Source of the DNA: Xestospongia bergquistia
Taxonomy: Eukaryota > Porifera > Demospongiae > Haplosclerida > Petrosiidae
Direction: 5' to 3'
NCBI GenBank assembly: GCA_963965975.1
Contig: OZ014412.1
Location: 10,273,849-10,337,848, forward strand
DNA: 64,000 nucleotides
The stretch's first letter is position 1, and every line of letters starts with the position of its first letter. Positions 6,001-60,177 of this stretch are shown piece after piece. The notes beneath the pieces were generated by a model that saw only the letters and a program-made list of their open reading frames with translations, did no database searches and had not been told where the DNA came from. A program made the translations under genes and the position numbers.

Positions 6001-9000
6001 TTCGTTAAAAGAAATGTCAGCATAAGTTGTGTTATTAATTCCATCATAAGTAACGCCATTACGTAGCGGCTAGCAGATGGGAATCACGTGCAGGGAGGCA
6101 TGAAAACGGTTTTTGATTTGATGATTTTGTTGCATACCGTCAATACGCCAAATTAAATTTACTGCTAATAATACCCGTTATACGGTAGTCCGATAAGAAT
6201 TGTTGAAAGCTTTAACATGAAGTATTGGCTTCTGGAAATCTTAGAGAACTTTAATAATAAAAGTAGTGATGTTACTGAGCTCATAACTACTTCCTAAAGA
6301 TGCAATTTCATTAAATTAAATTAATTAAATATTATTCATGAGAAGAAATGGTGAACAGTAGGTTCTATTGAACTCAATCAAGTGTTTCTTAGTACATCTT
6401 TTTATTTTCTATTCTATAGAGAGCATAACCTTCAGAAAATGTCAACAAAATATTTTAATAATCTTAATAATAAAGACAGGATCTTTGGCTGAACATGTGG
6501 TTAAAGAGTATTGGATGGCTCCAATGTTAGTTCAATTACATGTATTTAAGTTACCTACTTGTACATATATACACACACATGCGTACAAATCGTAGTAACA
6601 TTGTTATAAAAGAAGTGTTTTTAAAGGCAATTCACACTTCAAAAAACTAAAGAACTGTAGAGATAGTAGTGCAACATTTGAAACAAGTGACACATACTAG
6701 AAATGAAAATATAAAATTCCTACATACTAGCCAGTATGTAAGTAACTATAGTAACCCTATATTTTGAAATTTAATGTACTTTCACATATAATTTTTACCT
6801 TGAATTGACAAGAAGAAGTCAGGCTTACTGTCACCATTGTCAGAATCAATGTCATTATTAAACCATTGCAATTTCATTAGACTCCCCTTCAAAACTTCAG
6901 AGTCACTACCCTATAATTAATAAATAGAATTAAACTACAACACATGTACTAATGTTAAATATACCTCATCTCTTGAAATCATGAGAAATGTAGAGCCACA
7001 AGACTTCTCTAATATTAGCTATGTATGTTGATAATGAAGTCCATTTGTCATAATAAATTACCTTATATTTTCTGTCCACCGTTGATGGTTCTTCTAGTGA
7101 TATAGATTGTTCTGATATCTGCACTTTCAAGTACCTTTGTGTAGGTACATGTTTTATGTAATACTTCTCTTTAAAGTAAATTGGACCACCTACAAATTAA
7201 TTAAATATAATAATACTTAAATTAATAATTTCTAGTTAACCATAAAAACACTCAGAGTCAACCTTTTCTAGTTGCCACCAACAATCTCCTGAGACAGGTG
7301 GAAGTCTTTTCATTCCATGAAAACTCCATTTCTTTCTCACAGTAACTATTATTAAAATAAAATGACATAATATTAATGTAAAAAAGTATTTTTACTAGCA
7401 TCAGCTGCACTTCCAGCTAAAAATCCATCTACTTCAATGTTTCGAAAGCGAATCACACTTCCTCCCTATATAGAGTTATTATTACATGTAAATACACTAG
7501 TCTTATGTATTATACTTACTCTAATTGCTTCACTTGATTTGAATGAACTTGTATCAGTGTATCTTTCAATGACAAAGGAAGAATTGGCAACTGCAATTTT
7601 TAAGTCATTTCTGAAAAAATATAGCATTTACTTGTTAAGACAGAAACTTAAGATTCAAAAAAATAATATAAATAAATAAATAAAACCAATCAATCAACAA
7701 ATTATATACGAAAAAAAAAGCAATCTTACCTTTGAGGGTCTGTACTCTTACAGCTAAGAAGATGACAGCCTTTCTTTTTCACTGACTCAAGAACAACTTC
7801 ATCACCGGAACTTACCTATAATAGTTGAATCAGCAATAAAGTCAATCAAAAAGAATCACATAATGCAGCTATTATGGTTATTATAGATTAGTATTGTAAA
7901 ATATGCAATAATCTTGCTTAAAGTCAGGAAAATTAAGCTAAGGTCAAAAGGTTATCTGAATTGTAATAGCATTGATATAACATTGCTTAAAAATTTATAA
8001 CATGTTAGCCAGCAATGAAATAACACTGCATTGTGGGCCATCATGTTTATAACTCATCTGAGTGTTTTAACCTATATATATTTTATCACTAAGTAACAAT
8101 ATAAAACAGCCACATGGAACTAAATTGTGTAGCCACTACCTGCTGATTTTAAGCTAATTAATGTATTTAATTACTTTATATAGTTGCATTGTCTAGGTAA
8201 TAAACAATTAACACATAAACTTCCTCTCTGCAAATGTGCTAATAACTTTTGAAATATGAACCAGGAAATGGTAATGATAATGATAATAATGTAAGTGTAC
8301 TTACTGTGTCTCCTCTCTTCTTTCCAATGGAAATCTCTCCTTTGGCTTGTCCCATTTGAGTAGGTAAAATTCTAAAGACACAGGCATCATCTTCTCTTCT
8401 AATGTCTTCCTTCATATCTTCTTTGACAAGAATCTATAGAGTATCAAATTGACATGTACATATAATTATAATATAATAAGTATGAATGTGTACATGTACA
8501 TGTCAATACATACCAGGTTATCACTGTTGTCATCTACTGACAGGTACATGTCTAAGGCAACATGACGAAGCTATAACAGCAAAGACAAACAATAAAATCA
8601 TATGATACCACTTAATGTATACAGTACCTTGATTTTTCGACCATATATAGCAGATGTAAAAATGTCATGCTTGCTACTACTGATGAGTGGTTCATTCTAC
8701 AACAAGAAAGCATGACTCCCTCCCTTCATCATTTTCTTACCTTTGGCAACATTAGTGGTGACGGAAGACTACAAGGAAAGCATTAAAATGATATACATTT
8801 GAATTGTGTTTATATATTTACTTGGTTATAAACGTATTCCATGGCTCAGAGATGATTTGAAAGGCAGCAACTAAATTGTACATTAAATATTATAAATAAA
8901 TTAAGCTTAAATAATTATGAACTTACAATGAACATTACGAAATATTTGGTCACCTGGTTCATCACTTTCAGGATGACATTCTCTAGGATCAGGATGAAGT

Positions 9001-14329: not shown

Positions 14330-14420
14330 GTAACTAGACCACTTTCCACATCATTTTGTGCACTCCTCATGTGTTTTGAGAGACCACTTCGAAATGAATA
14401 ACCCCTTCCACAGATTGAAC
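14330..14420 (-). pseudogene. C2H2-type finger within the transposon protein
   Basis: HTCSICGRGYSFRSGLSKH has the C-x2-C-x12-H spacing of a classical zinc finger. The second His is replaced (RSAQND). A second C-x2-C (TCTLCNR) follows about 12 residues later. It lies in the same open frame as, or just downstream of, the Ulp1-like C-terminus, which supports a single multidomain protein. It may serve in DNA recognition by the transposase; this is inference. Confidence 0.55.
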
Positions 14421-21082: not shown

Positions 21083-21540
21083 GGTGTGCTTTTATTTCAG
21101 AAAAAATTCTATTTGACTGGGCAAGATAGCATTTAATATTATTCCTACTAGTAGGAAAATTCATGTAGTTTGAAGACATTGTACAGTATGTGTAGATCTC
21201 CATCTAGACTTGCTGAGTTTTTGTACATAATAATTATAATAATTATAATCAATGTAATTATACTTATTATCATTACGAACGAATGAAAACTATACATTCA
21301 CTGTATAACTATTCTAATATGTTTAATAATTATTATTCACATAGGAAATATACTCAAGCATTTGTATAACATTGAGTGTACTCACTTTTCCTATTCTATG
21401 TGTAAAACAGTAATAATTGTATTTTAAGAAAACAGCATAAAAAGCAGCAATAATTTGTGGCTTATTTAAAAGAATGTTACTTTCACTACATATTATTATT
21501 TTTTATTTTTTTCAATTTTCTCACTGAGCCTTCAAATTCT

Positions 21541-21669
21541 TTATTTCTTCCAATATTGTTTTCTCCATTTATCAAACTGTGTATTTTGATCTTTAGTGAA
21601 TACTTTTCCTCCAAGCTTTTTTGCTTTACGAAGTGGAAGGAATTTAATACTACCAGGATTACCACTAAC
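21541..21669 (-). other. Gene 2: last exon, divergent C-terminus
   Basis: After YVYDC the exon reads SGNPGSIKFLPLRKAKKLGG and ends QFDKWRKQYWKK before TAA. Compared with gene 3 (QFVKMEKTILEEL and a stop about six codons later) one base is missing in an A-run near 21567-21570, which shifts the last ten codons. Vertebrate IP3Rs end in a long coiled coil here. This family has only a short tail. Confidence 0.8.
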
Positions 21670-24600
21670 CTAGAAATTGAAAAAAGAATATATACCACTG
21701 TTAAAACAATTGCAAAAACTGGTTGTTTTTATAGTCAGGTTGGATGCATCCCATAAAATATAACAAAAGTATTAATATTTGCTGGTTTGATTGCTAATGA
21801 ATATGTGTCTGTAATATGTAGGGAACTCCTGCAGTAAAGCAACCATATATGATAGCCCTTACACACGGGCCCAGCATCAATCTTTTACTTTATTAATTAT
21901 ATATAATGAGATAGACATTAGATAGTATGTTTGTTACAGTTAATACACAACTTTATCAGTATATTTAGAAATAACACGCAGCAAGATGTTTACTACTCTG
22001 CAGCTTCTTGTTTTGTATACGCAACATATATGACTATGGATCAACCAATCTGTTTTTGTAGTGACATATAAACATGTGCAGTTAACACTTACACAATCAT
22101 AGACATATTTTTCAATAGCATTATGATCTTTTGGTTTCTTTGACTTGACATGATGAATAAAGTACATATAGTTGTACATGTTGTGATCATCACGACAATG
22201 ATCTTCAAAGCTCTTAGCAAAAGAGAAAAAATTTGATAATATTGTTACAATTGAAAACAGTATAGATTAAACAGACTTTACAATGTTACTAATCAGTTTA
22301 GATAATATCTAAATAGCAATAAACTCATATTTAAAAATGAGCAATATGTGATTAGATGATGATATATAACAAGAGATTTTAATTCTTGATTAAGGTCAAT
22401 TAGATGTTTAAATTTTTGTGATGTACCTGTTTATAGCATTGTTACTTTATGTTGATGCTAACAGAGATAACACAAATTTACATAGACCTTTAATGTAAAT
22501 TACACTCAAATATTTATTTTAAGATGCATATGATGTGTTATTCATAACTCAACAGATTGCTGTTTAGATTTAAAATTGGTTGGACAATAAACTCTATAAA
22601 ATAGGAACTTGGGACTCACCCTAGTCCTATGTTTTTTTGGAAGCATTGCCAAAACTAAGCACAAAGTATACTTGGATGCTATGGCTTTAAACTACTTTTG
22701 AGCTTTACTATCTGTTTATTTATAAGGACACAAAACTGCTTTACCATATGATTTTGTTGTAATTAAAGGTGGCTGCAAGTAAAATCAAACGTAAAAAAAT
22801 CAAAAATAAAAATCAAAGTAAACGAGTAAAATCAACACTTAGCCACTTACTATGCCACATTTTTCAAATTGATCACTATCAATGCCACAAATAAAACAAA
22901 AATCTTTCTTATCTTTTTCAGCTGCATCCTACACAACAGAGGAATTGTATTAATACATTTAAACACATGGCAGAATTATTGTCTTACTCTTTTGGTTCTA
23001 AGCTCATAAAACCTGTCTATCAAGATGGCTATAATAACCCCTAAACCAATAACAGACACTATGATGAAAAATGTTAAGTCAATAAATGAACGGCCTAAGT
23101 AAACTTCAAAAGATGGGTATTCTTGACCAACTCGATTTGTTGGAATCTATAGGAAAGAAGTCAATAGCTGTTATAGATTATTACAAAACTTACAGTTCTT
23201 AAACTATTTAATAAGCCTTCTCTTATTATAGTAATATAACATTCAAAGAGACTTTGACAGAATAAGTTGTCACCAGGTTCAGGATTAAAGAAGTTGGAAA
23301 AAAAAGCAAATGAGATAGCAGCATAGATCAGTATAATACTCAGAATGAGAAGTATGACTAATACCAACTGGACAACTAAAGTAAAAATGACTTTTATTCA
23401 TTAATACATAGTCAATAAATAACTTACGTTTCGCTTGGACTGCTTTTATAACATGATTAAGAAGTTCACTTTTAATAAAGATATAAGGCAGACAAAAACA
23501 ATAAAAATATCCTGAGAAGAATACACCCAAAAAAGAACATAAAACAAAGGGAAAATGATAAGTTGTATAAATTCCCCAAAAATTGATGTCAAAACATTGG
23601 TTTTTTGGAGGTTTGTTGATCCAATTTAAATTTTTATTGTCCTTGAACTTCTCCAACTGCCTTAACCAAAGTTTCACTTCATACCTGTAATATAGGAGAT
23701 CAAAAATAGTCAAAATAGTCTTTATATGGTACAAAATATATTCTAGTCTCTCTGTAATGATAGTTTTATATGTTAATTATATATATCTTACAATAGATTC
23801 ATAAGTAATGGGATCTTGAGTGTAAAGTTTGGATACTTAAAAAGAAAGTATTTGATGACCATAAAGATACTCAATATCAGATGTAAAATTGCCAGCAGTC
23901 GATATATAACTTGGTAAGGTATATTACTAGTCTCCGGATACAAGACAAAAAAAAGGGACGAGTTACTGCCAATAGTAATTGATCTAAAATGTATTATCAG
24001 TAGTATAATAGTTTAATTAAAACCTACCTGTCTGAAATTCTAACAACACTTAGAACAATTATGTTCAACAAAATTGTCAGAAAGTTTAGAAGTAAACGTA
24101 GTGGACCTCTATCAATTCAAGGATAAAAATAATATGAAATTATTTGGTAAAAAAGACTTACGACAACTTCTCTATTCTTGAGGTACTTTTAATTTCCAGT
24201 TTCTCTTCCTATATAGGTAATTTGAAAAGACTGAGCTAACTAGTACTACTTTTAATCAGAAAAATATATACAAATGCAATTATACATATAAATTAACATA
24301 TAGCAGTATTTCATTATCTCCAGTAGAAAATATGCCATTTTTAACAGAGAGTGCAATACATATAACTGTAAAGTATGGCACAAAATTGTGTTGTAGTAAA
24401 AGATGTATGATTATTAACCAAATAAACAACTTACTCTGTATTTTAAAATTTTATCCACAGAATTAGCCCACTTTAAGAGGTCCTTTGCCTTGTCCTCCAA
24501 TGAGTCACGATTGATATTATTTTGTATTTCTGTTTTCTGACCTTCTGTTAACTTTTCCTAAAATAACAATAAAATGGATAACTATTGTCTAATAGAAATA

Positions 24601-26976
24601 ATTAAAATTTTAGATGCTCTCTAAATGTATATATATCAATGAAATGTTTAACTTACTGAAACATAACGAAAATAAACACTAGTCAATATGGCTTTGTCAT
24701 TGCTTGTATCTTCAATAGAGTCTGTATAGTTCACTTCAATGTGACATGTACTGTCCTTGACATATTTTCCTCGATCACTTGTTTCATCAAAATCAGGCAC
24801 TATTAAAACAAATTTCAAGGTATTATTTTAATATGCTAATTAACATCAGAATAGAATAAGATTGCAATATTAAAAATCACTTTGATCACTAGAAGATGCC
24901 TAAGTTATTAAAACATACTAGAAGTTGTTATTACAAGTTGTGAAACAATGACAAAAGAGATTAAGAAGCCAGCTAGATAGTAGCATGATTGAATAAAAAT
25001 TAAAAGACAAATAAAATTATCCCAACACTAGGCAAAACAAACAGATGTATTATAACAGAAGAGAATTATTAAAGCTAATTCTGTGTGAACATCAACCAAA
25101 TTTACTGAATGGTAAAGCATGTAAATTATTTTCTACTTTAGTAAGTCTATTGCTACTTGCATCTTTCAAAGGCCATAGGCAAATAAATCAAGCCACACAC
25201 AATATTTCACAATGCATAACCACAATTAATTTGCTACAAATGCTAACAATGTTGAAAAAAATTTTTTCGGCCTGAAAACTCAAAACATTCTTTTATGTTG
25301 CAAGCAATAAATTATACTGCATTCTATTAAGGTTTGCATTATGTTAGATTTGTTAATACTGCTTTTTGTTATTACTGTAAATAGGTAATAACATTATTAT
25401 TATTATTAAAAAGATTCCTTTATGTACTAATCCATGGTTGCATTCAATTCATCATACTGCATTTCATTAAGGCTTGCACTATATGTTAAAATTTGTAATT
25501 ATTGATTTTCTAAAGTAAATAAGTAATGTCATTATTACCATATTCACTGAGAGGTTTCCTTAGGTAATCGGCACTTTTTCTGAGGATATGATAAGTTCTA
25601 ATTGTTGCAATATCAATAATATCTTTCTTATCATGGTCAGTTGACTATATTACAAAGATATAAAAAGAATCAAAGAGTTGATAATATATTCAAAACTTGA
25701 TGATCATGTCTACTCAAAAACGTGCACGAATATCACACCTTGTAAAAACCATCCATTTTTGCTAAAATGATTGAGACATCAATATCCTTTGCTACTGCTT
25801 GTCCAGTATGTTGACAAGCAGTTTGATCAGAACTTGTCTCCTCCAACAAGATCTCCAAAAGTTCTAAAGCTTTGCACTGCATACAGCAATGGTCCCATTT
25901 CTATAAATAAATGAAGAGATACTATTCCACAAGGCAGTGCAGTTGATAGTAACTTTTCTATTACATCTTAAAAAACTAATAATATTACTACAGTAAGAAT
26001 TTACGTACCAAAGCTGGATTTGGCTGTTCCAATATCAATATTTGGTTTATAGAGTCGACAACTTGACCATTAATTGCAACATTTTGATTTGAATGATTAC
26101 CACTACACATCTCAATAAGAGCCTATATATTTGGATAATAGATAAAAATTGAATTTAGAATTATTTACCTGAATGGTCCTTTTGATAACTGGTATATTAG
26201 GTTTTTTATTCTCAACAACTGCTTGAAATAGTTCTGATACTTCACCAACAATATCAATCTGTACATGTTATGTATTGGCAATTATTTGGAGGTGAAGGCA
26301 AATACTTACATATCTATGCTCTTGATGTTGTAAAATAACTTGCATGTCTGTGTTCTGACCATCACACATTTTAATAATTAATTCCAAGACAACAGTGACA
26401 TGTTGGACAGGTTTCTTTTCAGTTATTTCCTGTCAATGTACAACGAGATTGTACTATATGACATGTTTATCACTCACTAGTTGACCTGCAGATTCAATAG
26501 AATATATTACCGAGTCACCTGGTTCTTCTTCTTCCTCTTCCTGCTGATCCTCCTGTTAATGAAATAGAATTAAATCAGAGCAAACATATGATTTTATTCA
26601 AATTTACTAACAACTTACTGATTGACTTCTAATATTAACCTAATAAGTTAATATTAGAAGTCAATCAGTAACTTGTTAGTACATACAAAAACATGTCATA
26701 TAATACAATAATATTGTGGGTAATATAATTTCCTTTATAGGTTAAACCTATAAAGGAAATTATATTACACACAATAAATCATACTAGTTTATAAATTATT
26801 GTGCTTACATGTGTTCCAGCAACTTCTTGAACTAAACTAGATAAGATTAAATCAATGGATTGATTATTTAACTACATAAACATATATTACACATACTGAT
26901 TTCACTTTTTCAGACAGTATGGAAATATATATTGATAGTAAATACAATTACTAAATTTTCCAAGACATATACTAAT

Positions 26977-27014
<38 letters not shown>

Positions 27015-28162
27015 GTTGTCACTAAACCAGGAAATAGCAGTAGACAAGAGTTTATAAAGCCTTAGGAAAAAATTTTCATCACTAGCAGCAATTAATTTTG
27101 CAGTTTTTTCTTGATCACATTTGCAGAGGTCAAGTATAACATAAAATGCTAGTACAGCAACATCATCAGAGGGATGAATGAGAAGAGAAGCAGTCTTGAT
27201 AAAGAAATAAAGTTCGGTCTAAACAACTATAATTTTTCCATTTTTCTAAAAGTTCTAATAACTTTCAATCAGGTCTTAGTAAACAATTAGACTATGATAA
27301 AATGTGACTACATATTATTATATGCAAAGTTAATACTATATTTTATGGGTATAATAAGATATGAATCTATTCTGACAAATTTAGAAGTAATAGACCATAG
27401 CATATTTACCTTTTGATATATTTCTTCTAAATCTTCTATCTTCTCTTTTAACCTATAATTATATCAATAATATAGTTAATGAGAGCATACATTATTCTTA
27501 ATGTTCACATTAACTTTTATTGCCTCTCGTGATTCAGAACATAACTACTTCTGTTTTTTTGTGTGTAAGTCTCTACAAGCATGTCATAATCATGTTTACT
27601 TGTGTGCATAGCTAAATTGTCCTTTGGCAAAAATAACCATGTCAGTTAGTAATGACCAAAGCATAGTACTATGACCATTGATTTAATTTACTTGTACTCC
27701 AATGGGCTTGGCTATATCTAGGGTGCTAATTATATTCCAATTACAAATTTGCTAAGGAAAACAGATATTGTTGACATACTTACCTCCTTTCTGAGCATGT
27801 GAATCGACTTAGAACTCCATGAAGTAATTGCAATGTACTACATAGATCAGCATTAAGTTGATTTCTTTTTATACTGTCATATGTGTGATATAACTGACTA
27901 TATAAAACTCTGAAAGAAATATGTGTAGTCAATATCTTTATAAATACATATACATTACAATACTATATTACTTATTTACATCTGGTTATACTAACATTGC
28001 TCTCTTAGTTAAGTACTGTTATTTAGCAGGCAAAGTGGCAGATAGCACAAGTTATTGCTACACATACAAATTTAACTTTTTATTTACCCAAGCATATCAG
28101 ATGCTTTTTTGATATTTCTATTAAAGCAAAAAAAACATAATAACAATGAAATAAAACATAAT

Positions 28163-28231
<69 letters not shown>

Positions 28232-31200
28232 TAGACATAGCATAATATTTTCGAGCATAAAAATTTATTTTCAGATGTTGCACAAAATTATGTAATATTT
28301 TTTGCTCGAAAACTAGAGAGTGATGTGTCATGTAATCTGTCACAAAATAAAAGTAGTAATTATATTGTACAAAGTAGTATTTTAGTGAATTTTGCAACTA
28401 CAATTTAGCTATTAAGGGATATGGTTTGCTATATCATAAGGAACATTACATAACAAATATGCTAAATTATTAACCAAAAATAGGTGTGTACTATGTTCAT
28501 TATGTAGGGTGCCTCTGGAAAAATATCATATGTAGCCAGGGAAAGGCAGTATAGTATAATTTCAATATAAACATTATATACTGTATCACTCCCTTATACA
28601 GAAGACTGAATAATTAAATATAAAGTTCATCACCTCATACTAAGTGGCTATTTATATAGAGATTTTAATATGGATTTGTGTGTTCATCCCTACCATTTTC
28701 GACATTGTTATTCCTACATAATCTTTCAATTTTTTGGAAATGTCTTTTATTACTAGTAATAATAATAATATGATGCCAATTAAAGTAAACAAAAAAAATC
28801 ACTTCACTAACATTCAAATAGACTCAGGTTTACACTTATGTAGGACAGATATTTTACAATAGTTCCAAGTAAAAAGGTGAAGATTAATGTTGAGGCAAAA
28901 TTTGGTTTAAATACATTACTAGTATGCTATTACTTTAATGAAGAAAAATGAATGACACTTTGTGAGCAAAGTTCATTCATAAACATTTTTAAAAACTGTT
29001 GTTAATACCAGATCTATTTACATTGCTACTTTGTGGTTTATATAAGTGTCATCCAATAAACAGGAAATGTTTAAATGAAATGCTTTGATAAAGGAATCAT
29101 GAAATTTTCACCTTGTAATTTTTTGGAATATACAATATACAACATATAATATTGTTACCTTTTAAATTTTGTAGAGTCAACATCAGTAAACAAATCAACC
29201 AAACATTTGAAACTCCTCCCACCAGGTAACAGTTGTGTTGAACATTCTATTAAAAAAGATTATTCATATCTTTTCACATCACTAATGTATCTCTTTTATA
29301 GTATTGTTCTTTCCTTTCAGAGTAATACTGTGCTTAAGGTATCAATTTAACAGCATTTACTTAATGTGTTGTATGCTGCAATATTAGCTACAAATAGGTA
29401 TGCAAGACTATGTTAATCAGAGTTACAATTAATAGACACATTATAGTAGTCACTCTGTCACTACAATGTCAGGTCATCATGTGCTAAAGTAGTTCTGATC
29501 CATCTCAAGTAGTTTATACCATGAAATGAAGTACTAACAAAGTCTTCCTTTGCTATATTAGATCACAGACTTACTTAGTCATCTTATAATTCTTTTGATG
29601 ATGACAATTTAAATTAGAAAACATTACAACTTTGGACAGTAAAGAACTAAATTAAGTGTAAGAAGACAAGGCAATGAAGTTAACTAAAGATGCTTGGAAG
29701 CTCAATTAGTCAAACTCATTATTGTAGCACTTGCAGTAAATCTCAATAAAAATTCATTGGTTGCTATGAGAATAGCTAATTAATGTATACATATTAAATT
29801 TATTTGGAGACTTTAATTGTGGCATACAACCATAGAGCAACAAGTAAGTGGGCATAACCATGTAGATATACATACCATGTGGCTTAAAACAATTATAGAA
29901 ATGCCTGGCAGTAAAAATTACTTTTCAACACTCTACGGTCACATACAGCACATATAATACAAACTCTAATTAATATGAGCTTTCATATTCTAAATATCAA
30001 AGTAAATCATACTATGATATGGAGCATGGAGCATGCAGTTCAATAATATACATACATACATGTATGCATGCGTGTTATCACATGTGTAAATATATAACCT
30101 GAGTTTTCATCACTATCCTGTGTCTCCTGTTCATGAACTTCATAGGCTTCCTGATAGTTTAGAATAAACTGCTGAAAGAGCTCATTCAATTGTTTCTCAA
30201 TTATTTCAATTTCAAGTTTTGGACAGTCAGATTGTCTTTGTCCAATGTTACTAGCAGCATTCTGTGTGCAATAAAATATTGGTACTAAATCAATGAAGTA
30301 CATCATGTACTGCACTACAAATAAAGTATTTAAACTAAAATTACATGGATCATACTCAAGGCTATTTACTAACTGAGTCCTGCAATGTACATTAGACAAC
30401 TTGTTCACAATGAATATCCTTTCAACTGAGTTATTTTGAGTGATCTTTACAATTACAGTCATAAATCAATTTAAACAAAAAAATTAATGACTTCAACATA
30501 ATTATTGGTTATATATAAAATCATGTTTGTGCACTGCAATAATGTTAACAAAGAAAGAAACAAGATGTTTTAAGCAAGACTACTAGCACATCACTGACCA
30601 CTTCATAGTAGTACATTTCATGCATTTTATTACCTTATGCTTAAACTCATTTGGAAATAGCTTAGATATGCTATTAAAACAAGAATCCCAAAAGAGTACA
30701 TGAGCTTCACAGGTCAGAAATATTGGAGCAAGGTCCTCATCAACTAACTTCTATTGATAACAACAAAATCAAAACAATAGGTGAATTAATAAAATTACTC
30801 AGATCAAATTCAAGGCCATTTACTAACAATAAGTCACATAATGTATACTAGACAACTTGTTCACAATGAATGTACTTTTAACTGATTAATTTTGAGTGAT
30901 CTTATACAATTACAATTATAAACATAATTTGAATTGCAACCATATTTGCACATTATACTGCTTAGATAACACCCTTGAACATGCATGACTAAAGATAATT
31001 GTGTGTGCCAGACAAAGGCATCTAAATTTTTAAAGCTAATTTGTAATTAACAAAGCTAATAAACAACAATAAGTCATTTATTTACCAGTACTACATCATT
31101 AAGTTATTTCCAACTTCAAAGACTGAAGAGTTGGCAAAAGCTATAGATTGGCTCAAAGGTTCTTCTAAACTAACAAAGCTCAGAAGCTTTGATCAGACAT

Positions 31201-34200
31201 GCTCAATTCAAATCACATGTGATAAAAGAAATGACATATTGTTATGTGCTTTGGCAGTTATTACTCACTTTCAAAAGTCACACACAACAATAAAATACCC
31301 GTATAGTTAACACATGGTCCAAAACAATTTTAGAGCTCCCTAGTACACTGAATGTGCCAGGCCAAAAAATCTAATTTTTAAAAGCTAACTTATAATTAAC
31401 AAAGGTAATAAATAGACAATAATAAGTCATTGACTTACCAGTACTGAATTGCCAAATTGTTTTAGGTTTTCTTGTTGCCACTCATCAAGTTCATGTGAAC
31501 TTAGCTCATTACAAAATGAAGTAACTAATGGAATCACTCCATCAACAAGATAAAAAAGACCAAAACTGATCTCTTCAGTACTTGAGTCATCAAGTTTCCA
31601 GACTTTTGTCCAACTCTGACAAAATGGCAGTAAAACTCATATTAAATAATGCGGGGCAAAATTATTTAACTTACAATATGTTCAGAGAACAATCTCTTAA
31701 AGAGAAACATAAACTTCTCATCATCAAATGTATCAATATGACGATTAACAAAGGAAGTACAGTCATCAATATGTTTCCAGAAATCACTATTCCTATCACA
31801 ATCAATATAAAAGTTATAGCAATTCCTATAGTTAATAGAGTCTTACTTAAGCTCATGCATTGATGAATGAGAATACTTCTCACTATGGATGCAAGCCTCA
31901 TTAAGAAGGCGAGCAAAAGGTACTTTACGTTCCCTTGGTACATTGTTAATAACAAGAATTCTATAAAAGAGTTAATAATTACTAAACTTTGATATTATAC
32001 AATGTATTTGATTACTGCAGAATTCATTGAAAAGTCAAAAAATAAGTTGTCTTCTGTGACCTAGCACACTGTGTATACCAGGCAGTTCTAGATTGTCTTA
32101 CAGCTGTGTATAACTATCTATTTATATATGTCCACTTCTTTCTTTAATTTTATTGCTGTATGCAACAAAGAAATAAGGTTACATATTCAAAAGATTTTTT
32201 TAATGGTGCAGTTGTTGTTATATAAGGATGTAACAAAACTGGAAAGCTGAGATAGTTATAGTATGCTCAAAGACATTTCCAAACATTCATCAGTCATGCT
32301 CAGTAGAAATAGATGACTGCAGAAGCTTAAAGAGAGTAAGCAGTTGGGATCTGAATAAGCATTGACAATTGAAATTTGATACCTGGCCCAAGTTGGGGTA
32401 TGGGAATAGCAGTTCTTTATGTAAGTTAATTTCATTTGTCAGCTTCAAATGTCACATACAACATTAATGAAAAGATATAACTGAAGTATACATACACACA
32501 TGTATGGCACACTGTCAGAAAAAAGTGCATACTAACCTCACTAGTTCTTTTATTGTGAAGATCTTATGACACAGAGTCTCAGCAAATTTTCCCCTACCCT
32601 CAGCAGATGTAGCTAATAAACTAGATACATTCAACAGTGTCAATAACGTAACATTATCATTAGGGGTCTATATGAAATAATAGATAATTTCTGTATAAGA
32701 GTATACACATACTACTTACATCTTTTGATAGTACAGCAAGTCGTTCATTAGCCTTATCTTCTAACATAAGACTAAAAAAATTGTCTTTGTACTGAAAACT
32801 TTCATTCAACATTCTGGCTATATTTTCTTGAGAATTCATCAGAAGAGGACCAGATTTGCTTTTGGAGGGCTACAGAAATATGAATACAGGTGTTTATTAG
32901 AGAAGATTATATAAATAATCTACCTTCATCACAACTTTGAGAGTAGTAAAAAAGTCTAGATACTCTTTAGTTTCATTTGAAGTACCAGTACAAGCCAGTA
33001 TATATAGCTGTCTAATATCTCCTTCAGAAAAGTCACGACATAATTCAAAATTGTCTGTAATAATCTATGAAGTAAAAACAATGAAGCAATGATAGATAAG
33101 CAAACAGTTACCTCTGTCAACAGATATGCAACAGAAGATATGACAATCTTGACATCATAAAAGTCAGTAAAATGCAAAAATATTTTTTGCTGCACCTTGA
33201 ATGTAAATTAATTAATTTTACAGTAATACATCTTATTAATTCTACCAATTTATTTCCTCTGCAGATTTTTTGGAGGACATCACAAACATCTACTAATAAA
33301 TCCTTGATTTTATCTTTTTCAGAACCATTTTCATAGTCTTTTGAAAAATGTTTGAACACAAAAATCAGAAGAGCTGAATAAACACCTTATGGAAAAGTAA
33401 AGTGATAAAAATGGATAACAACAAATATTGTGGAGAGACTAAAGACAATGTCTACAATGATAAACAGTCATGTTAAGTTATATTTACCAGTAGTATAAAC
33501 AATATTTTGATAGTTTGGCCTTGGACAAACCTCATTATTAACAAAAAGTAAAGTGTTTTTCAGTTCCTTTATAAACATTGGCAAATCACCTACAGTGAAG
33601 AACAAAAGAATTGACAATTCTTATCTAAGCATATATAATTTTTTTCAATGTTGTAATCTAAACTGCACTAATGCATACTTAATATTCATCAAAACAGAAT
33701 CGTCATTAAATATTACCACTGGGATGGGTAGCATCTACTAGTGTTTTCAATTCTGATTCCTTTCTGAGATGACCTTCCCTCATTGACTGGTCGTATATGC
33801 TACAGTATTGAGTTGGATCCCTTTGATCAACAGCAGTGTGAATATAAGAGCACTTGGCATCTTCAAAAAGTTTATGTTCTTTCTACATGCAATGAAAGAA
33901 AATTGTGTCATTATAAAGTAATATAAAAATATTTTTTTTAAAATAAAGGATAGTATGCCAAAAATGAAAGAGACAAGGTAAGGGTGAAAACATAAATCTA
34001 TATAAAATCTTTATAGCGAACAAGTATCATCCCACAAGCTTTAATTCATAACTATATGCCAACATACACCAATCAATCCAATTTTGTTCTGAAAGTATGT
34101 TGACATGATTAAGTTGATCATAAATAAAAAGAAAGAACAAATAAAAGCAGCAGATGAGAAAAAAAGGGAAACACAAAGAGAGCACTGCAAAGAAATTTAA

Positions 34201-37200
34201 AAAAGATAAGAGTAGTAAAGATCAAAACGAGACAAAGATGGAATCAAAGGGTGCATAGTTTACTACTGATTATATTTTTTGCAGAAATTGAGTACTAATA
34301 GATAATAAGGGAGACAGAGGCAAAGAGAAATTTTATCAATGCATATAAATTGTTATTTTAAAATTAGCAAAATATATATTACAGTGTCATATTTTTGACA
34401 CTGTAATATATAGCCCTCTTCCTTTAACTTTACTTCAGTAAGAATTTTAAGGTCCGAGACTTGATTATTTCAAACAAAAGTGATAAGGGCATGTGAATAA
34501 TTGATTAATGAATGAATAATAACTGCTAATAATTATTTTATAATGCATGATGAAAAATAACTGACAATGGCATCATAGTAGAAGGTAGCTGTTTTTTGCA
34601 GAACATGTTAAATTTATCAAAAAGGTGTACTCCCAAATACCTACCCTGGTTAAATTGCTGCATCTTAATAGCAAAATCATGTCGGCATAGATGAAATAAA
34701 ACTCACTCTTATGACTGCAGAATCTGAATAAGAAAGAACGATTTGGCAGCCAGTTGGGTTATACCCAGTGGTTTTCTACTTTAGCAAAACTTTGGCTTAA
34801 CTAGAAGCCTCAGCAACTGTGAAAACTCTCAAAAGCAAAATAAAGTGAAGAAAGTATTTATAAAAACATATTTTTTGTTATAACAGAGATTTAAACTTTT
34901 GATGTTCAATAGATAATATGTGGCAGCCACTTTTACCCTGCCCATTTCTGCATATTACACTTAATAATATACACATTATTACTACATGTGGCATATTGTA
35001 TAATTATACCTTATAAATTGCATATAACAAATTTGCACTGTGTATTCTCAGTTCATCATCTTCATAACTCATCAAATCTTGTAATATTACAACAAGACCA
35101 CCAGGATCATCAACATTAAAGCATTTGTAATCACCTCTTGTTTCAAAAAATCCTGCCAATGCTTGACATTGCCTGATAAGGACACTAAATACAAAACAAA
35201 TATAGGTATAAAAATGTTGTAAACAGCTGGATAGGCAGTAGAATGAGAAATTGGTGCCTATTTAGACTAAAATGGAAGACAGAAGTTTACTAATAAAATC
35301 TAGAGATGCCAGCAAAAAGACAGCAAACTTAACATAGTGCAGTCTAACAGTGAAAGTGTGTAAAAATGAAATTTTTTTATAAGAATGGGATGATGTTATT
35401 ATTAGAGTATTGTTCTTACTCATCCTCCAGACTTGCAGCATTAAATGACTCCTTCAACAAAGGATCAAGTCCAGGATTAGTACTGTCTTTACGACATTTG
35501 AACTCAATCAATAGTTTCTACATTATTTCAAAGAAAATGTAAGTAATGACTCATAGTTTTATAAAAAATACACTTACTGCACAAGCCATGTATGAAAGTT
35601 GTTTGAAAAAAACATGTAACAATTTTACAGCTCTACAAAACAAGACAATGAGATATAGTAATTGCACATACAGTATATTGGACTAGTAATGCAGAAGTGT
35701 AATGATGTTTGCCTTACATTCTTTTGACTTTAAAAATGTGTTCATTGTTATCCTTTGCATATCGCTGGTTATCTACAATGATAATAATTAATATAATATA
35801 GTCAAGTGGTTACATAAGTAGTATTTGATGTGTACTAGTGGGTATGGCAGATATATATCATTATAATATTATTGTAAAGGTCTTTGAAAGAGAAGCTACT
35901 AAATATATACATTGTATAGTGTACCTAATGGCTCCAATTCACTATTTTTGCAACAATATAACTTACTGTTTGGATAATTATCTGTCCTCGGGTCCAATAT
36001 CCTAACAAGACTAGAAAAATCAAATTCTATTTCACTGGAATCCCAAAAATAGGCATAAGCAGCAAGACGTTCCATGACTTCTAGCATTTGAGCTAAAAGT
36101 TCATTATTGGCTGAAAGTGTTTCATTAGGTCCTAGCACCTTAGATTAAAAAGAGAAAACATGGTTGCAATAAACTACTTGAGGTAACAATTTAGATTTAT
36201 TAGCAAATGGATAGCACATTGCAAAATAAACAAGATTATAATATTACATAAACCATTTTAAGATTGCTTTGATGGAGATGCTATTATAGTAAAGAAGTAA
36301 GGTATAGTAAAGTCTCGCTAATGTCGAATACTAGAAGATTTATGGAAACTTTGGTGCTGATAAGAACATAATTTAATTAGTTTGACCGAATCAACAAAGC
36401 ACTTAAGGTGAAAGCAAGTTAATTAATTGGTTGTGATATGTATTAGCAGTCAATAGGTCAATAGTAATACTATATATACACATCTATATCCTATATCCTA
36501 TATACTTACCAATGCAAATAAAACTATGTATATATATCCAAGCTATGGAAGTGCTATTAATAATACCTGTTTGTTCTTCACTTTTTTTCCAATGTGAGAA
36601 ATCAACGCACGGATGTTAGTAGCATCTTCCAAAGTATCTACACTATATCTACTAACATTACTGGCTTTTAATGGATCACGGTATACAAGGTTTTCCCATA
36701 ACTACAATAAAAATACTATTGTTTTGCAATTAGTTATACATTATACAAATGTACATCTTAATTTAATCACTATCACTTTATATGACCACAAATGAAATTA
36801 AATTCTCTTCTAAGAATGATGCACCTCATTTTGTTTTGAGACCTTCCATAATTAACACCTCTTAAAAATACCATACCATTTTCACATATTTAATTTAATA
36901 TAGATATAATGCAATGTCATTATAATGTCATTATAATGTTTCTTAAAATAATTAAACCAATCCAAAATTTAATGAATATCTCAAAGCTTAACTCTTCTGT
37001 CCTAAAAATAATCTCAATAATCATGTATATATAACAGTATTAAATACAGTTACTTACATAACAATGCCATAAGTGATCAATATCTCTTCCATTTTTATCA
37101 ATACTGGGCTCAATATAAAGTGACTCAACAAGCTCCAAATAAGCTGATTTTATTTCTAATGGAATGTTCTTGTCTCTGAGAACAATTAAAGCTTCATCAA

Positions 37201-38802
37201 ACCAGCTCTCTTGTTTAAGTTCCTTTAATTCATCAATACAAATCTCATTAACACCCTATACAAATAAAACAAAGAACTTCGGGCAAAATATGTTTGATGC
37301 ATTTATGATCATTGAATTAATACCACTTGCATTTAACATCAATTACAATAAGTTTCTGTGTAATGGTAATTTCATTGTTTCAAAATTCACAAACAACAAA
37401 ATAATTTTATAATGTAAATTAAATTTAAAATCAAACTTCTCACAAATAAGTATCAGAAACATTAATAGCATGAAAATCTAAGCATACAAATTAATCACTT
37501 CATAAACTATATATTTTTAAGTTACACATTAAAAATGTATTCATTAAAAATATAATTATTACATAATATCTAACTATCTTTAAAGTGACGAATTTATTAA
37601 TATTGTAACTATTACATTAACACATACTTTGCAAACATTACTGAATAGCCTTAGCTGAGCAATAAAAAGTAGTTTCACATTTTCTTCCTACAAAAATAAC
37701 CATTAGCTCTGGTAAAATACTTAGTACTTACAGATTTACTTAGTACTTACAGATGTGCAAGCTAGTGATGAAACCAATACTTTTGTCCTTTGTCCTGGTT
37801 CATTTGGTAGAAAAATGTAGACCTCCCCACTTTTGACTTCAGTTACATAAAATTTGTCCTATATATTAAAGAAATTTTAGGTCAATGATTCAGAATATTC
37901 TTAATATTAATAATGAGGCATGTACTGGACCTAAAAAATATAATATAAAGTTTATATTATAAACATCTTGAAACATACAAATCTTGTTGTTTTTTACAAC
38001 GAAAGTCAACAAACAAATCATTTTTAGAACAGAACTGCTCATGATGGTAACTTTATATATTGGTCATTGTGAATTTGTTGCATTAGAAATGAAAAAAAAT
38101 TGCTAAGACTTCTAAAACAATTAAGATATAATTGGAATATTGTCCTATAATTGTTTTGGAAGATACTGATTTTACACTAAAACACTAACTAGATCTACAA
38201 ATATTATAAAATTAGCATTATCTGTGGACAACCATGGAATGCTAGAAATATAACTTGATAGACACAGAAGCTAGAAATTGAGCCTTCAAATCATGATCAG
38301 TCATACTAATCATAACAGTGCTCATGGTTAAAGCTAAAGAAATTCATATACATTAATAGCTGCTTAATTGTATACATTGCTTTCAATAATCACATAAAAC
38401 GATCAAAAAACAAAACAAATAAATGTACGATTATATATGTACATATTTCATACTTCAAAACAATTATAGCACTACCCAGAATGCAAGGCATGCCAGGCAA
38501 TGAAAATGTGAGTTCATTCTTCATTGCAAAGAATACAACAAGATATACAGTAAGGATCGCAGTTCTACATAACAACACTGGTAACTAACCTGTCCTTTCT
38601 TAATGATGGTTGTAAAAACTTTATCTGTAAGAGTTAAGGAATTAATCAATAATAGCATTAATTAGACACTGACACACATGCAGTTCAAAAAGAGAGAACA
38701 CAACTTTACACTACCTATCTACCTTGCAATTCTCTGTTGGGTAAACCTTCAGTGAAGCAGAGTGAACTGTATAAATGAAGAACTGCTGCATCCTACAAAC
38801 AA

Positions 38803-38834
<32 letters not shown>

Positions 38835-41800
38835 GATAGTATAACAACTGACAACAAATACATTTAACTCATGCTCCTCAGATTCAATTGCAGAGTCAAT
38901 TGCTGACACTAACAAATTTGCAATTGTGCTATAAAATAAAAAAAAGACAATTTTATTTTAAGTAGATGTGTTGTATATGACATAATCCATTATTATTCTG
39001 AACATGCTCATTTACAAATATGGAAAGCTTTATTGTAAAAGATTCATGTTGATGGGAGTTTTTGGAATTGAGGGTTTAGGGTGAATTATAGATAAATACA
39101 GAATATATTGAGAAACAAATGCATTATATATTGTAACTTGAAAATAAATAATTTTTAGCCTTTAATTTACAACAAAAGAACAGCTGGAATCACAAACCTG
39201 CTCTCTGTAACTTAGTACTATATACTCTAATGATAAGCATGGTATGCAATCGTCTGATTTATAGGAAGTGGTCAGCTCTCATAACTTAATTTGTATTATC
39301 ATTATAGCACTTGCAGTAGAACTGTCTTAGTTGATAGGTTTATTCACAATGCAAGATTCATTATTTTTAATACCAGTGCACAGTTTTAAACTAATATAAA
39401 ACAGTAGATTGACAGTTTCTGTAAGACTTTTAGTTTTACTAATATTTCATACCTGTCATGATAGACTAATGTACTCAGCACATTTTCAACACCAAGACCT
39501 CTACCTAACTATGCAAAAAATCATATGAGCAGTTTACCAAAAGAACTTACCATTTTAACAAGCAGTTTCCTGAAGTTAAGATCAGAGTCTTCATTGATTA
39601 GGTACAGCCTCAAATTACGACTTGGTGTTTTAGCACAGCACTCAAGGACCGAACACACCTTGTTCCTTAAGTCATTAGATCTGTATATATACATTACTAT
39701 GTCAATTGACTCACATAATATTAGACAACTTAATATATATTATAACCACAGCAAAGAATAATAAGTTCCCGTTTCATACTGACAGGTAGGGAGGCTCCTC
39801 AAAATAATACAGTTAAGCATACTTTTAGAATATTTTTATATACTTATTACTTATGGCACAAACTGTAGCTATCAATCCTAGGCTGTTCTATTAGAAACCA
39901 ATGTTCATCTTAGGTATAATTGTAAGGAGGCTTGCCTTCCCTCTATGAGTACTACAAACCAAGGTGCAACAGATTTACTAATGCACATTACATTCCATCT
40001 GCATAATGTCATTTATTGTGACAAAATTGTACTAAAGGTGTATGTTATTACACATTTGAATCTGTGTAATGTAAAGTATTTAACATTTGCATCCATTAAA
40101 TTATTAATCACTTTATTAACCATGTGAAACTTACTGAGACTTTGCCAAAACATTTACCAGTAAATTAACAATCTATATAAAAGACATATCATGAATGAAT
40201 GCAAGTACAAACAAAAGTTCAAATGAAAGTATAATCAGGTACATGATACCAGTGCCTGGATTGACCAGTGAAATGTAATAGTTGAAAACAATATGTATCT
40301 CCCTCAAAACTGATCAAAAACTTTTAATTTGTTGCAGTATTTCTTTGTAAGATAATCCCTTTGTCATGACTTATTTATATGCACACAGACACAATTAATC
40401 TAATGTTAGATTTTAATATTTTTCCTCTGTCTCTGCTTTTGCTTTTTCATTCACAATAACTCAATAATCATAAAGAGTTTGGACACCAAATTCTCAGAAG
40501 TAATATATTTAACTATTAAGTATGGTTTTTGTGTATATATGCGCAATGAGCACTAACCAATGTTTTGAGTCTACACAATTTTCACTGTATAAATTGTGGT
40601 ACTTAAAGTTAATAATCCTCTTTAACAATTAATTAAGATGTAAACTAAATGTGGTATTGAGTTGGATAAGGAAACTCAAGAGTATTTACTGAAAGTAATT
40701 GCTCAATACTAGCTCCCCATCTATGTTCTGAGTCAAAGCTTAGTTATCTTGTATTTTCCTGTTACTTAAATCTCAGAAATGTCTCAGAGTTTTCTGCATT
40801 ACTCACTTACTACACAATGTGAGTTACAATGCAATATTGCCTACATCTTCACATTTAGAAATGATTGTCTTGAATTTGAGATACATGTATGTAAAAATTT
40901 AAAATAACAAGTGCCTTTTCTTAACAAGGGAATAAATGAAGTAATGGCCAATGTCAGTCCAATACAAAGAACACAAATAAAGTAGTAGTGGTGATAACAA
41001 TAGTATGGCTATACAATTATAGAAAATATATGCTATTAAAATATGTTGAATAATATACATGAATAATTTGATAGATATATAACATTCTATGATTATGCTA
41101 TAATATGTAGTGATACCATCTCTACTATCTTGCATTCTTTGTATTGGAATAACACTAGACATAACTACATTTAACTGATTTCTTAGAAAATTCTTTTAAT
41201 TTAATTGCGACATATATAGCAGCAACTTACATTGTATACTTTTAACATTTTGGCTCCAATATTGACATCCTTATTAGTATACCTTACTAGTTCATCTAAG
41301 ATCTCATTAAGTTCATCAGATTCATAGTTTGGATCACTCAGTATTAGCTATACATACAATAATCGATATAATTGTCATTTTGTAATTAATACAATTTGAT
41401 ACTGACTTCATAATACTCTGATAATACGTGACGAATACTAGCTGCAAAGTGGAGGCTATGAACATGATCTGGAGTAACCTATAAGAGTACATGTACAGAC
41501 AAGATTATGTAATTATAGTGATTATAAAAATGCACTATTTGTAATTATTGAAAACTGGATAATAGAAATACATGCTACTGTGTTGCTCAAACTCAAAGGC
41601 ATTTTCTCTCTCTATTAGTTAGAAGCTACAATCTATCAAATATTATTGACAATTATGTGCGGATTAATTTCATTTGTCACTTCAAAAGTCATTTACAACA
41701 TTAGTGTATATGTAAAATTAATGCAAAATGGAAATAACTATATACATACAAGCTTGATCCAAAGCAATCTTGGGACAGATGACACACAAAACTTCCAATG

Positions 41801-44800
41801 TCAAAAAATATCCACAATTTATACCAGATTTTATTTCTATGTACAATGTACTTACTTCTTCAATTCTAAAGTTGGCAGCATCACATTCTTCATTTAGACA
41901 AACCTACATACATACATAGAAGTCTGTTTATCAATCAACCCTTCCATCTTGTACAAATATATTATAAATAAAAGACTATAAATAACATTGACAAGGGCAT
42001 GCACTCACATTAAACAACTTTGTACCAATATTACTTTTCTTGTGAACACGTTGTAGCAATGTATTATTTTCTAAATAAATATATATAACTTAAATTATTA
42101 CAAAACAATGTATTGATTATATCATTATCAATTTATTGATACAAACATACCTTGAACTGTCAAGAAAGTCTTATTATCAACAATGCACAATTCCAAACAT
42201 TGCAATTTCACAATTTTTTCATTCAAAACTTCACCTTCATCTTTTTTCTAATAATAAGTTCATCCATATCCAGATGTTATAGTTATTTCAGTTACCTCTT
42301 TACTTGACAAAATAAATTGAGAACCGGTACTGTCCAATTTTAACTAAGCCAGATTTAAAAAGTAAACTATAATTGTAATTATTACTTTAGATTATTAAAG
42401 GCATACCTTATATTCTTGCTGTTGTTTATAGACTAGCAAATACTTTTGACAAGGAATGTGTTTGATATAACATTTATCTTCAAAGTGTACAGGATTACCT
42501 AATTAATCAAAAAATTCCATACCAGCACTAACTTCAAATTTATACCGTTAAATTTGCATGAGTTTACTTTCTCTACTTTCTTTAGTTGCCACAAGCAATC
42601 TCCAGAGGTAGGTGGAAGTCTTTTCATTCCATTGACATTCCATGTCTTTCGTATCACAACTAATAATAAAATAAAATACTTACATAATACTGTCTCTATC
42701 TACTGTTATTTACCAGTATCAAAAGCAGCTTCAGCCAAGAATCCATCTACTTTAATATTTCGAAGTCGAACTACACTTCCTTCCTAAACAAAGAGGACAT
42801 TAATAATTAACATGACATTATTATGGGCACTCACTCGAATTGCCTTATGACATTTAGTATTGCAAAGGATCTCAATTACAAATGTGGACTTAGTAACAGC
42901 AATTTTCAAATTATTCCTATAGTAATTACATTGATGTTATAAGTCAGTTCAACATTGAAGCTTAATGTAATGCAACTAAAATGTTTTAAAAATTAACAAT
43001 TTTTGCTCATCAGATACATAACTATAGCTTTCCTATTATCAAGAATTGTACTGCTGAAGAGGGGTTTCTAGAATGTTATTAGTCATGTCAATTATATCAC
43101 AGCATTTACATTAAATGCAGATTAAGTGCATTTGCTGTAGTTTGCGTCAGTGTTAGATGCCCCAGACTACTTCAGTATCTATTCTCACATACAACAATTA
43201 ATGTGACATGGATATACTAAATACTTCAATGTTGTTCAAGGATTGGTTGACACACTTCCCACAGTAATCAGTCATAACTCTTAACCAAGACATATATACA
43301 AAATCACCTTTTAGACTCAGTTCTCTGGCAGTTAAGAATATGATAACCTTTTTTCTTAGCAGACTCCACAATAACTCTATCACCAGAACTTATCTGAAGG
43401 AAAGTACAAATAGAGATTGAACTTTAATATCATTCTGTACAAGAGGGTCCTCACTATTAGATGCACTGTGAGCTACTTAAGTTAACAACATAAATTTTGT
43501 GCGACAGAAAAAGGGCTCCTTCCTTTGAATTTATAAAGCAGACACTATATGAACCATTCATACATGTACTGTTTCAAGAAAACTATATTTATTTACAAAA
43601 TTGTCCTGTTACAAAATAGAACTTTTGAAAATTGAGAGTCAGCAAACAGACTAAAAATAACTAACATTAATAGGCATAAAGCCAGTTAACCAGCCTAGAT
43701 TTTCTATAGCATGATTAGTATCATTTATTGCTATATGTAATATTTGCAGTAAAGCAGATTACAGTTGCAATGTATTGGATGTGAAGTACTTTCATTTTAG
43801 CATAGAGCTACTAGTGGCCCTTTCATGCACTGATGATGTGACTTACACGATCTCCTCTTCTCTTTTGATTTGAAGACTCCATTTGTGCTGGTAAAATCTT
43901 GAACACACAGGAATCATCATCATCTGTCTCAACAATTTTCTTTGAAGAATATTACATTCAATACAATTATATAAATGTACTAATGTAAGTACATACCAGG
44001 TTATCACTGAGGAAATCTACAGATAAATACATGTTTGTTGCTACTTGACGAAGCTGTAATATGAAAACAAAAGCTCATGAAATTCATGAAAACAATTATA
44101 TATAGTACATCCTTAATCTTTATATACTCTTGTGCAGAATTTTTTAAAATTATGAGTATCAACCTAAAAATCAAGATTTCATTAATACCAAAGTACAAAA
44201 TGTAGATTTTCCCAGATAAAATGTACATATGTGGTCAAATGTTAATGTCAATGTTGTCCACTGGAGTTATGAAGATTAGAGAGTTAGTAGCATATATGTA
44301 CAGTTTATCAGGGAAAATCTACATTTTGTACTTTAGTATTGATGAAAAGTTTATTTTGAGGTTGATTCACATACTTATAAATAATTCTACACAAGATTAT
44401 AATGTACTATACATAATTGTTTTCAAATGTTAATGTTAATGTTAAGCACTGGAGTTATGAAGATTAGAATACTAAAAGCAGTGAGCAGTGCATGCAAAGT
44501 AGCTATGAAAGAAAATGCAATGCAGAGAAGTATACTATTGGTAAAGAGGCAAACTAGGCAAAGAGGTAAATTAAGTACATAAGCAAACTAGCCAGAAGTT
44601 TGAAGTCTTCAAAGCAAGATTAGTCACACCTGTCAATGCAGAATTTATGAATACAATACAAACTAATGAATTTATTTACTTCTGTTAAAATATAAATTCT
44701 GATTTTAATTGTGTACTTTTTTATATGAGATACATTGTCAACTACTACGAATTCTAGAGACCTGACTATCAGGTGATTGAGTGAATCTTAACTAGAAAGG

Positions 44801-58858: not shown

Positions 58859-60177
58859 GAGTAACAGAGCAATTGTATACATACATTTAAACACATGGCA
58901 AAATTATAGTCTCACTCTTTTGGCTCTAAGCTCAGAGAACCTGTCTATCAAGATGGCTGCAATAACCTCTAAACCAATAACAGAAACTATGATAAAAAAT
59001 GTTAAGTCAATAAATGAACGCCCTAAGTAAACTTGAAAAGATGGGTATTCTTGACCAACTCGATTTGTTGGAATCTATAGAAAAGGAGTCAATAGCTGTT
59101 ATAGATCATTACAAAACTCACAGCTCTAAAACCATTTAATAAACCTTCTCTTATTATAGTAATATAACATTCAAAAAGACTTTGACAGAATAAGTTGTCA
59201 CCAGGTTCAGGATTAAAGAAGTTAGAAATGAAAGCAAATGAGATAGCAGCATAGATCAGTATAATACTCAGAATGAGAAGTATGACTAATATCAACTGGA
59301 CAACTAAAGTAAAAAATGACTTATTCACTAATAACTTGTTAATAAATTGCTTACATTTGCCTTGGACAGCTTTTACAACATGATTAAGAAGTTCACTTTT
59401 AATAAAAATATAAGGCAGACAAAAACAATAAAAATATCCTGAGAAGAATAAACCCAAAATGGAACAGGCAAGAAAGAACAAACGATAAATTGTATAAACC
59501 CCCCAAAAATTGATGTCAAAATATTGGCTTTTTGGAGGTTTGTTGATCCAATTTAACTTTTTATTGTCCTTGAACTTCTCAAACTGGCTTAACCAAAGTT
59601 TTGCTTCGTACCTGCAATATAGAGAACCAAAAACAGTCAAAATAGTTTATATATGATACAAAATATATTTAGTCTCTCTATAATGATAATTTTACATGTT
59701 AATTGTATATGTCTCACAATAGATTCATAAGTAATGGGTGGATCTTGAATGTAAAGTTTGGATACTTAAAAAGAAAGTAGTTGATGACCATAAAGAGACT
59801 CAATATCCGATGTAAAATTCCCAGCAGTCGATATATAAATTGATAAGGTATACTAGTCTCCGGATACAAGACAATAAAAAGGGATGAGTTACTGCCAATA
59901 GTAAATGACCTAAAATGTATCATCAGTAGTATAATAGTTTAATTAAAACCTGCCTGTCAGAAATTCTAAATGCAATTAGAACAATTATGTTAAGAAGAAT
60001 TGTCAGAAAGTTTAGAAATAATCGTAGTGGACCTCTATCGATTCAAAGATAAAAAGTAGCATGAAAATATTTGTTAAAGATGACTTACGACCACTTCTTT
60101 ATTATTGAGATCTTTTTAATTTTCGGTTTTTCCTAAATAGGTAGTTTGGAAAGACACTATCTAGCACCATTTTTAAT

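Follow-up and report, generated by a model that had tools for sequence, protein, structure and literature searches.

Gene 2, which lies on the minus strand of the 64-kb window (the whole stretch of DNA that was analysed), appears from its sequence to be an intact-looking member of a family of channels related to the IP3 receptors (IP3R) and ryanodine receptors (RyR), one that arose by lineage-specific expansion, is blind to IP3 and has a rebuilt selectivity filter. The form found in gene 2, with arginine in the filter, would not conduct Ca2+ as an IP3R does and is most likely a non-conducting or modifying subunit; we give this reading a probability of roughly 0.55. By homology the gene is a member of the IP3R/RyR superfamily and, judged by the sequence of its defining filter or ligand site, it is not an IP3 receptor.

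Animals are generally credited with between one and three genes for IP3R, and as many for RyR. Metazoan IP3Rs and RyRs are described as keeping the filter motif GGG[VI]GD, nearly invariant (PMC3213138), and relatives from parasites have been described with GGGXGD (PMC3194816). In the open-access literature we recognised no report of an IP3R-like expansion with filter loss in a sponge or other animal. More than 30 natural pore variants on one scaffold would provide a test bed for the role of GGGxGD, for the limits of the IP3R pore and for sensing by the N-terminal pocket, and a sponge host would raise the question of how such a repertoire is used in a nerveless animal.

The pore region of gene 2

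The automatic model draws gene 2 across 22041..45229 (-) in 66 exons; both ends are approximate, many small exons are doubtful, and the N-terminal and tiny exons are unreliable. Upstream of S5, the exon 23428..23684 (-) forms part of the membrane region (RYEVKLWL...GIYTTYHFPFVL...VIKAVQAK), and its match to ITPR2 starts at TYHFPFV, that is, from ITPR2 residue 2347. S5 and the pore helix are encoded by the exon 23194..23375 (-), which resembles ITPR2, RyR1 and 31 paralogs and ends in CQSLFECYITIIREGLLNSLRT immediately before the donor gtaagt, with NSLRT falling within the filter position. A 47-nt intron of phase 0, with GT-AG ends, interrupts the filter at 23147..23193 (-), and is followed by the exon 22988..23146 (-), which carries the IPTNRVGQEYP loop and S6 (IPTNRVGQEYPSFEVYLGRSFIDLTFF...DRFYELRTKR, with IPTNRVGQEYPSFEVYLGRSFIDLTFFIIVSVIGLGVIIAILIDRFYELRTKR immediately before gtaaga).

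Read directly, the pore helix runs ...REGLLNSLRT and continues past the intron as IPTNRVGQEYP...S6; the six-residue motif GGG[VI]GD is missing between pore helix and S6, in agreement with the first-pass annotation, which had reported the absence of GGGVGD at this point, and NSLRTIP is aligned opposite the GGGVGD of ITPR2. That annotation had also held that frame and splice sites are intact here and that the 47-nt intron is too small to contain a microexon, and both statements are borne out by the direct reading of the two exons and of the junction between them. The exon that spans the pore helix to the start of the filter already lacks the glycines, and splicing to an internal AG of the intron as alternative acceptor would restore no filter, as the seven codons gained in this way end in TAG. 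The zinc-finger linker, which had likewise been described as preserved together with the end of S6, is seen in two exons in alignment with ITPR2: its first half at 22851..22928 (-) (DAAEKDKKDFCFICGIDSDQFEKCGI, aligned with ITPR2 CFICGLERDKF) and its second half at 22093..22212 (-) (SFEDHCRDDHNMYNYMYF...EKYVYDC), where the 3' end of the gene is approximate. Both the finger (C-x2-C ... H-x4-H; CFIC...FEDHCRDDHNM) and the end of S6 are intact.

Canonical filters in the window and in the genome

Contiguous code for GGG[VI]GD has no match on either strand of the 64-kb window. Relaxing the pattern to GGx(hydrophobic)G yields two matches, on the minus strand at 48034-48044 and on the plus strand at 17275; the former is not in a channel-like frame and was rejected as a hidden filter. 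As a positive control, the same kind of pattern picked up GGGIGD at the IP3R on contig C9 only, among the loci examined, while a search for contiguous code misses filters split by an intron, such as that of the RyR on C7. With no contiguous GGG[VI]GD code in the window, and with the minus-strand loose match not channel-like, a hidden or alternative filter exon was rejected.

A canonical IP3R with GGGIGD, which the first-pass annotation had proposed to seek elsewhere in the same genome, is present on C9. A ryanodine receptor is present on C7 as well, where an intron falls within the filter, whose sequence is GGGIAD provided that the GT-AG splice has been drawn correctly. Genome-wide loss of the canonical filter is ruled out by these two genes. 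The C7 intron, which follows GGGI, sits one base from the position of the intron in the family of gene 2 (with the splice as drawn); this proximity supports an alignment of the filters based on the intron, and may bear on their origin.

A family of paralogous pores

That gene 2 is a genuine relative of the IP3R/RyR families is evident from alignment of its translated exons: the spliced C-terminal region (269 residues, one too many at a join) matched human ITPR2 at E=2.1e-30 and RyR1 at 2e-26 by phmmer. Three further exons, 26429-26310, 26258-26169 and 26122-26009 (span 26009..26429, -), encode an RIH-associated domain (Pfam PF08454, 45.9 bits against a cut-off of 28.5, query residues 8-99). 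The description of the gene as IP3R-like in the first-pass annotation is therefore right as regards homology; it does not hold in the sense of a lone IP3R without a filter, since gene 2 is one of at least 32 paralogs that share another filter, and the IP3-contact residues are also lost.

A search of the genome (146 Mb, 21 contigs) with a neighbouring pore as query returned 66 matching exons with an E of 0.01 or lower; grouped together, these make at least 34 pore loci, spread over C1, C2, C5, C6, C7 and C15. The filter was readable by splicing in 32 of 34 loci; C5_4360k and C1_18855k were unreadable and were left out. The best-scoring splice was used for 29 copies, C2_10264k was set to the acceptor matching its neighbours, C2_11696k, which has no acceptor AG at the expected place, was written across, and a stop in S6 of C6_6646k was written as X. 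GGGxGD occurs in none of the 32 readable pores. All 32 have a phase-0 donor (as chosen) within the filter, at positions that agree to within one codon, and the usual filter reads G-L-L-[DNG]-[TSN]-[FL]-G-x up to the donor and x-[IL]-P after it. The third filter glycine is kept in 27 of the 32 copies and is R or K in the other five, namely Arg in gene 2 and gene 1 and Lys in the neighbours C2_10143k, C2_10231k and C2_10240k. Seven copies, which constitute the group at 11.66-12.0 Mb on C2, have a second glycine after the one at the third position. The one-residue gap of gene 2 is placed differently by MAFFT; the alignment reported here is anchored on the intron.

A profile of 16 family pores matched ITPR2 at 5.8e-15, RyRs at about 1e-12 and IP3R/RyR chains down to 1.1e-10, and among the best 60 of its 89 matches the first entry from outside the superfamily had E=0.021. 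No TRP or polycystin entry was found among these 60, and an affinity to TRP, polycystin or voltage-gated channels instead of IP3R/RyR was rejected on the strength of this profile.

Parts of three family copies are contained in the window. Gene 2 is alignable across the whole gene with its tandem neighbour and paralog, gene 1, in which the S5/pore exon lies at 59122..59303 (-) and ends in NGFRA, a 47-nt intron lies within the filter at 59075..59121 (-), and the S6 exon lies at 58916..59074 (-) (IPTNRVGQEYPSFQVY...DRFSELRAKR). The third copy is represented by N-terminal exons resembling the IP3 core at 7107..7349 (-), which probably belong to a gene with its pore outside the window, at C2:10263.6-10264.0 kb. 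Similar ORF-like sequence is present downstream of both gene 2 (21454-21756, +) and gene 1 (57213-57548, +), as part of a repeated tandem unit.

A pore tree was estimated from 32 family rows and four canonical ones (C9 IP3R, C7 RyR, ITPR2 and RyR1), with the filter columns excluded. The 32 family pores fall together on one side of a branch from the canonical four, with support of 95/97.8; the tree program warned that long branches meet at this join, and that such joins are possibly false whatever their support, so that the family may be nearer to either IP3R or RyR. When rooted on IP3R, the genes on C15 branch first within the family. The five genes with a basic filter fall within a clade of seven (100/98) that also includes C2_10358k and C2_10264k, both with Gly; since Gly and basic filters are mixed within this clade, Arg could be drift.

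The N-terminal region and the ligand pocket

Thirteen N-terminal exons of gene 2, read by eye at 41231..44053 (-), make up a region resembling the MIR domain and the IP3-binding core. In Pfam both domains are below threshold, MIR at 22.8 bits (cut-off 25.6) and Ins145_P3_rec at 15.1 (cut-off 23), and in a single comparison the N-terminus was alignable with the C9 IP3R at E=2e-6. A search of PDB with the N-terminus alone returned nothing useful, the first eight letters of the query being wrong, and another N-terminal stretch, scanned against Pfam, gave nothing informative.

The residues that contact IP3 are known from mammalian receptors, and in the binding core they include K249 and RTTGR. Aligned with the C9 IP3R, gene 2 has RKTWNVNGMKRLPPTSGDCLWQL where the IP3-contact RxxGR would stand, and it also lacks the Lys before FL. 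At the position of C9 LRQSGR, a different motif, R[KR]......[MI][KQ][RK].PP.SG..WQL, was found in seven of the eight loci read, with C2 contributing six (gene 1 and gene 2 included) and C6 one; for the remaining locus, the best match lay in a different frame. Because the motif is conserved in seven of eight loci, the pocket looks replaced, not merely decayed, and we infer from these residues that the family proteins do not bind IP3.

In the whole genome, a canonical IP3-binding-core query matched the C9 gene only, at E up to 1, and the gene 2 version of the same region gave 34 matches, spread over C1, C2 and C6, of which the lower-scoring half are marginal. In the cases worked out, core exons lie upstream of family pores, at a distance of 13.2 kb in C1_13957k, 13.7 kb in C6_1285k, 19.4 kb in gene 2 and 21.7 kb in C2_11824k. 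Some weak matches to the N-terminal core, among them C2:11908741, C6:6311314 and C6:2694608, have no family pore at the usual distance, and are perhaps broken copies or copies whose pores were missed by the search.

Coding constraint and decay

For counts of indels and of dN/dS, we removed 30 of the 66 exons of the automatic model and supplied 15 pieces read by eye, which gave 51 pieces of gene 2 exon sequence (5592 nt, of which 4982 were aligned with gene 1). These contain ten indels, four of which are not multiples of three and fall into two compensating groups, leaving no net frameshift, whereas the introns of the two genes differ by 334 indels, of which 263 are not multiples of three. Over the 51 pieces dS was 0.202 and dN 0.079, a ratio of 0.39 (Fisher p=6e-20) that is lowered because synonymous differences from gene 1 partly guided the choice of the pieces. 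Since the exons of gene 2 were chosen as open frames, its lack of stops is in part a product of that choice.

An independent set of 27 exon pieces (1001 codons) was picked by similarity to the distant paralog C2_11824k, and here dN/dS between gene 2 and gene 1 was 0.34 (p=2e-14), with 0.76 and 1.24 in the two other frames. The first-pass annotation had named proof of an untranscribed, decaying copy as an outcome that would overturn it, and for gene 2 coding constraint was found. Constraint is weaker in the 13 N-terminal exons read by eye (dN/dS 0.53, p=0.006). Among family pores, dN/dS ranged from 0.08 to 0.51 in 21 chosen pairs drawn from 29 copies, C2_10264k, C2_11696k and C6_6646k being excluded. 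This constraint implies that the gene 2 protein has been maintained over much of the period after duplication, and a pseudogene reading of gene 2 is disfavoured by the ratio of 0.34 and by the want of a net frameshift in the 51 pieces.

The condition of other copies varies. In gene 1, two apparent nonsense codons are aligned with window positions 42837 and 33272 (in gene 1 sequence beyond 64000), while the pore exons of this gene are open, and gene 1 may now be failing as a copy. C6_6646k has an in-frame stop in S6 and C2_11696k has lost its acceptor AG; together with the stops in gene 1, these indicate that some copies are decaying, and a pseudogene state is probable for some members of the family. 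The pore exons of gene 1 and gene 2 differ by five amino acids, and three of these changes lie within the five filter codons (counted post hoc), a cluster that is no more than a hint of relaxed or diversifying change at this point.

Proposed function and alternative explanations

The expansion is taken to be lineage-specific from the one species examined. We propose that the family proteins form tetramers within the endomembrane system and would be gated by something other than IP3. Members that keep the filter glycine would most plausibly be cation channels with a short filter like that of TRP channels or polycystins, and for these the functional channel with a different ion preference suggested by the first-pass annotation is possible. 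In the Arg/Lys copies, including gene 2, the filter would be lined by a ring of positive charge: the four Arg side chains at the gene 2 filter would repel cations, and Arg in place of glycine in that gene argues against ordinary cation conduction. Such copies would not conduct Ca2+ in the manner of an IP3R; their likeliest role would be that of a non-conducting or modifying subunit, with an anion path as a possibility. On a broader view, which we advance tentatively, an animal lineage would have turned the IP3 receptor into a multigene receptor family of more than 30 IP3-blind channels with a new pocket motif and a rebuilt filter, of which the Arg/Lys subgroup, including gene 2, would be anion-permeable or deliberately silent subunits.

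It is conceivable, if somewhat doubtful, that the proteins are conducting channels with a new ion preference, having a short filter of TRP/polycystin type through which the Arg/Lys members pass anions or strongly exclude divalents. We know of no IP3R-fold channel that is anion selective, which tells against this account, and with no TRP or polycystin among the best 60 of 89 profile matches the resemblance to those channels is one of motif only. The conservation of pore helix and S6, the purifying selection on the pore and the fact that 27 of 32 copies retain the third filter glycine are all in its favour, as are the similarly short filters described elsewhere, LGD in polycystin and LGA in oomycetes (PMC7399828). 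An unlikely account is that gene 2 and its neighbours are recent duplicates on the way to becoming pseudogenes, with Arg/Lys filters that reflect relaxed drift. The apparent nonsense codons of gene 1, the stop of C6_6646k and lost acceptor of C2_11696k, the post hoc concentration of gene 1/gene 2 differences in filter codons and the lower constraint on the N-terminal exons (0.53) are what might be expected on this account; yet the 51 pieces of gene 2 show no net frameshift against 263 frame-breaking intron indels, dN/dS is 0.34 on independently chosen exons, and the loss of GGGxGD is common to diverged subfamilies with constrained pores.

It is very improbable that the filter is an artefact of annotation, a canonical filter exon having been missed that is joined by an alternative splicing route. 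The position of the intron within the filter, as in the RyR of the same genome, lends this some plausibility, but one exon carries the pore helix together with the start of the filter, the intron is only 47 nt long, contiguous GGG[VI]GD is found neither in the window nor in the loci examined apart from the C9 control, and 32 copies agree.

Comparison with known channels

The family resembles ITPR1-3 in its pore helix, S6, CFIC...H....H linker and RIH-associated domain, and in an N-terminus that is alignable with the IP3-binding core, and differs from them in having no GGGVGD, in the loss of the IP3-contact RxxGR and of the Lys before FL, and in forming a separate clade. Its pores are comparably similar to those of ryanodine receptors (2e-26; about 1e-12 with the profile), and the filter intron of the C7 RyR lies one base from its own; the filter is a different one, and the distance from core to pore, 13-22 kb in the worked cases, does not by itself exclude RyR.

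Filters of the TRPM type read FGxIP. Short filters with one glycine, as in TRP channels and polycystins, constitute a likeness to the family: the polycystin filter is given as LGD, and a short LGA filter has been proposed for the PKDRR proteins of oomycetes (PMC7399828). In contrast, these channels do not occur among the best 60 of the 89 matches to the family profile.

As an expansion the closest parallel is in Paramecium, for which 34 calcium-release channels in six groups (CRC I-VI) have been described; group VI is reported to have practically no similarity in the filter, and several other groups only variants of it (PMC3213138). The comparison is with the published description only, and extends to a set of 34 IP3R/RyR-like genes with altered filters, although Paramecium is a ciliate and not an animal. 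Expansion accompanied by filter loss thus has a precedent.

Other features of the window and genome

ORFs at window positions 11957-14922 (-) encode a ZSWIM/MULE-like RNase H transposase (PF21056, 40 bits against a cut-off of 27.2, with MULE just below its cut-off), together with one PHD and one C2H2 finger, both weak, and this segment is probably a Mutator-like element. On C21, the contig with cox1, TGA is read as Trp, and tRNA genes for Arg, Ser, Asp and Cys lie near cox1; this is consistent with Porifera, cnidarian mtDNA having retained one or two tRNAs. Two cox1-like fragments with stops, at 3154917-3155898 and 3199148-3200446 on C6, a contig of nuclear size, are probably nuclear copies of mitochondrial DNA.
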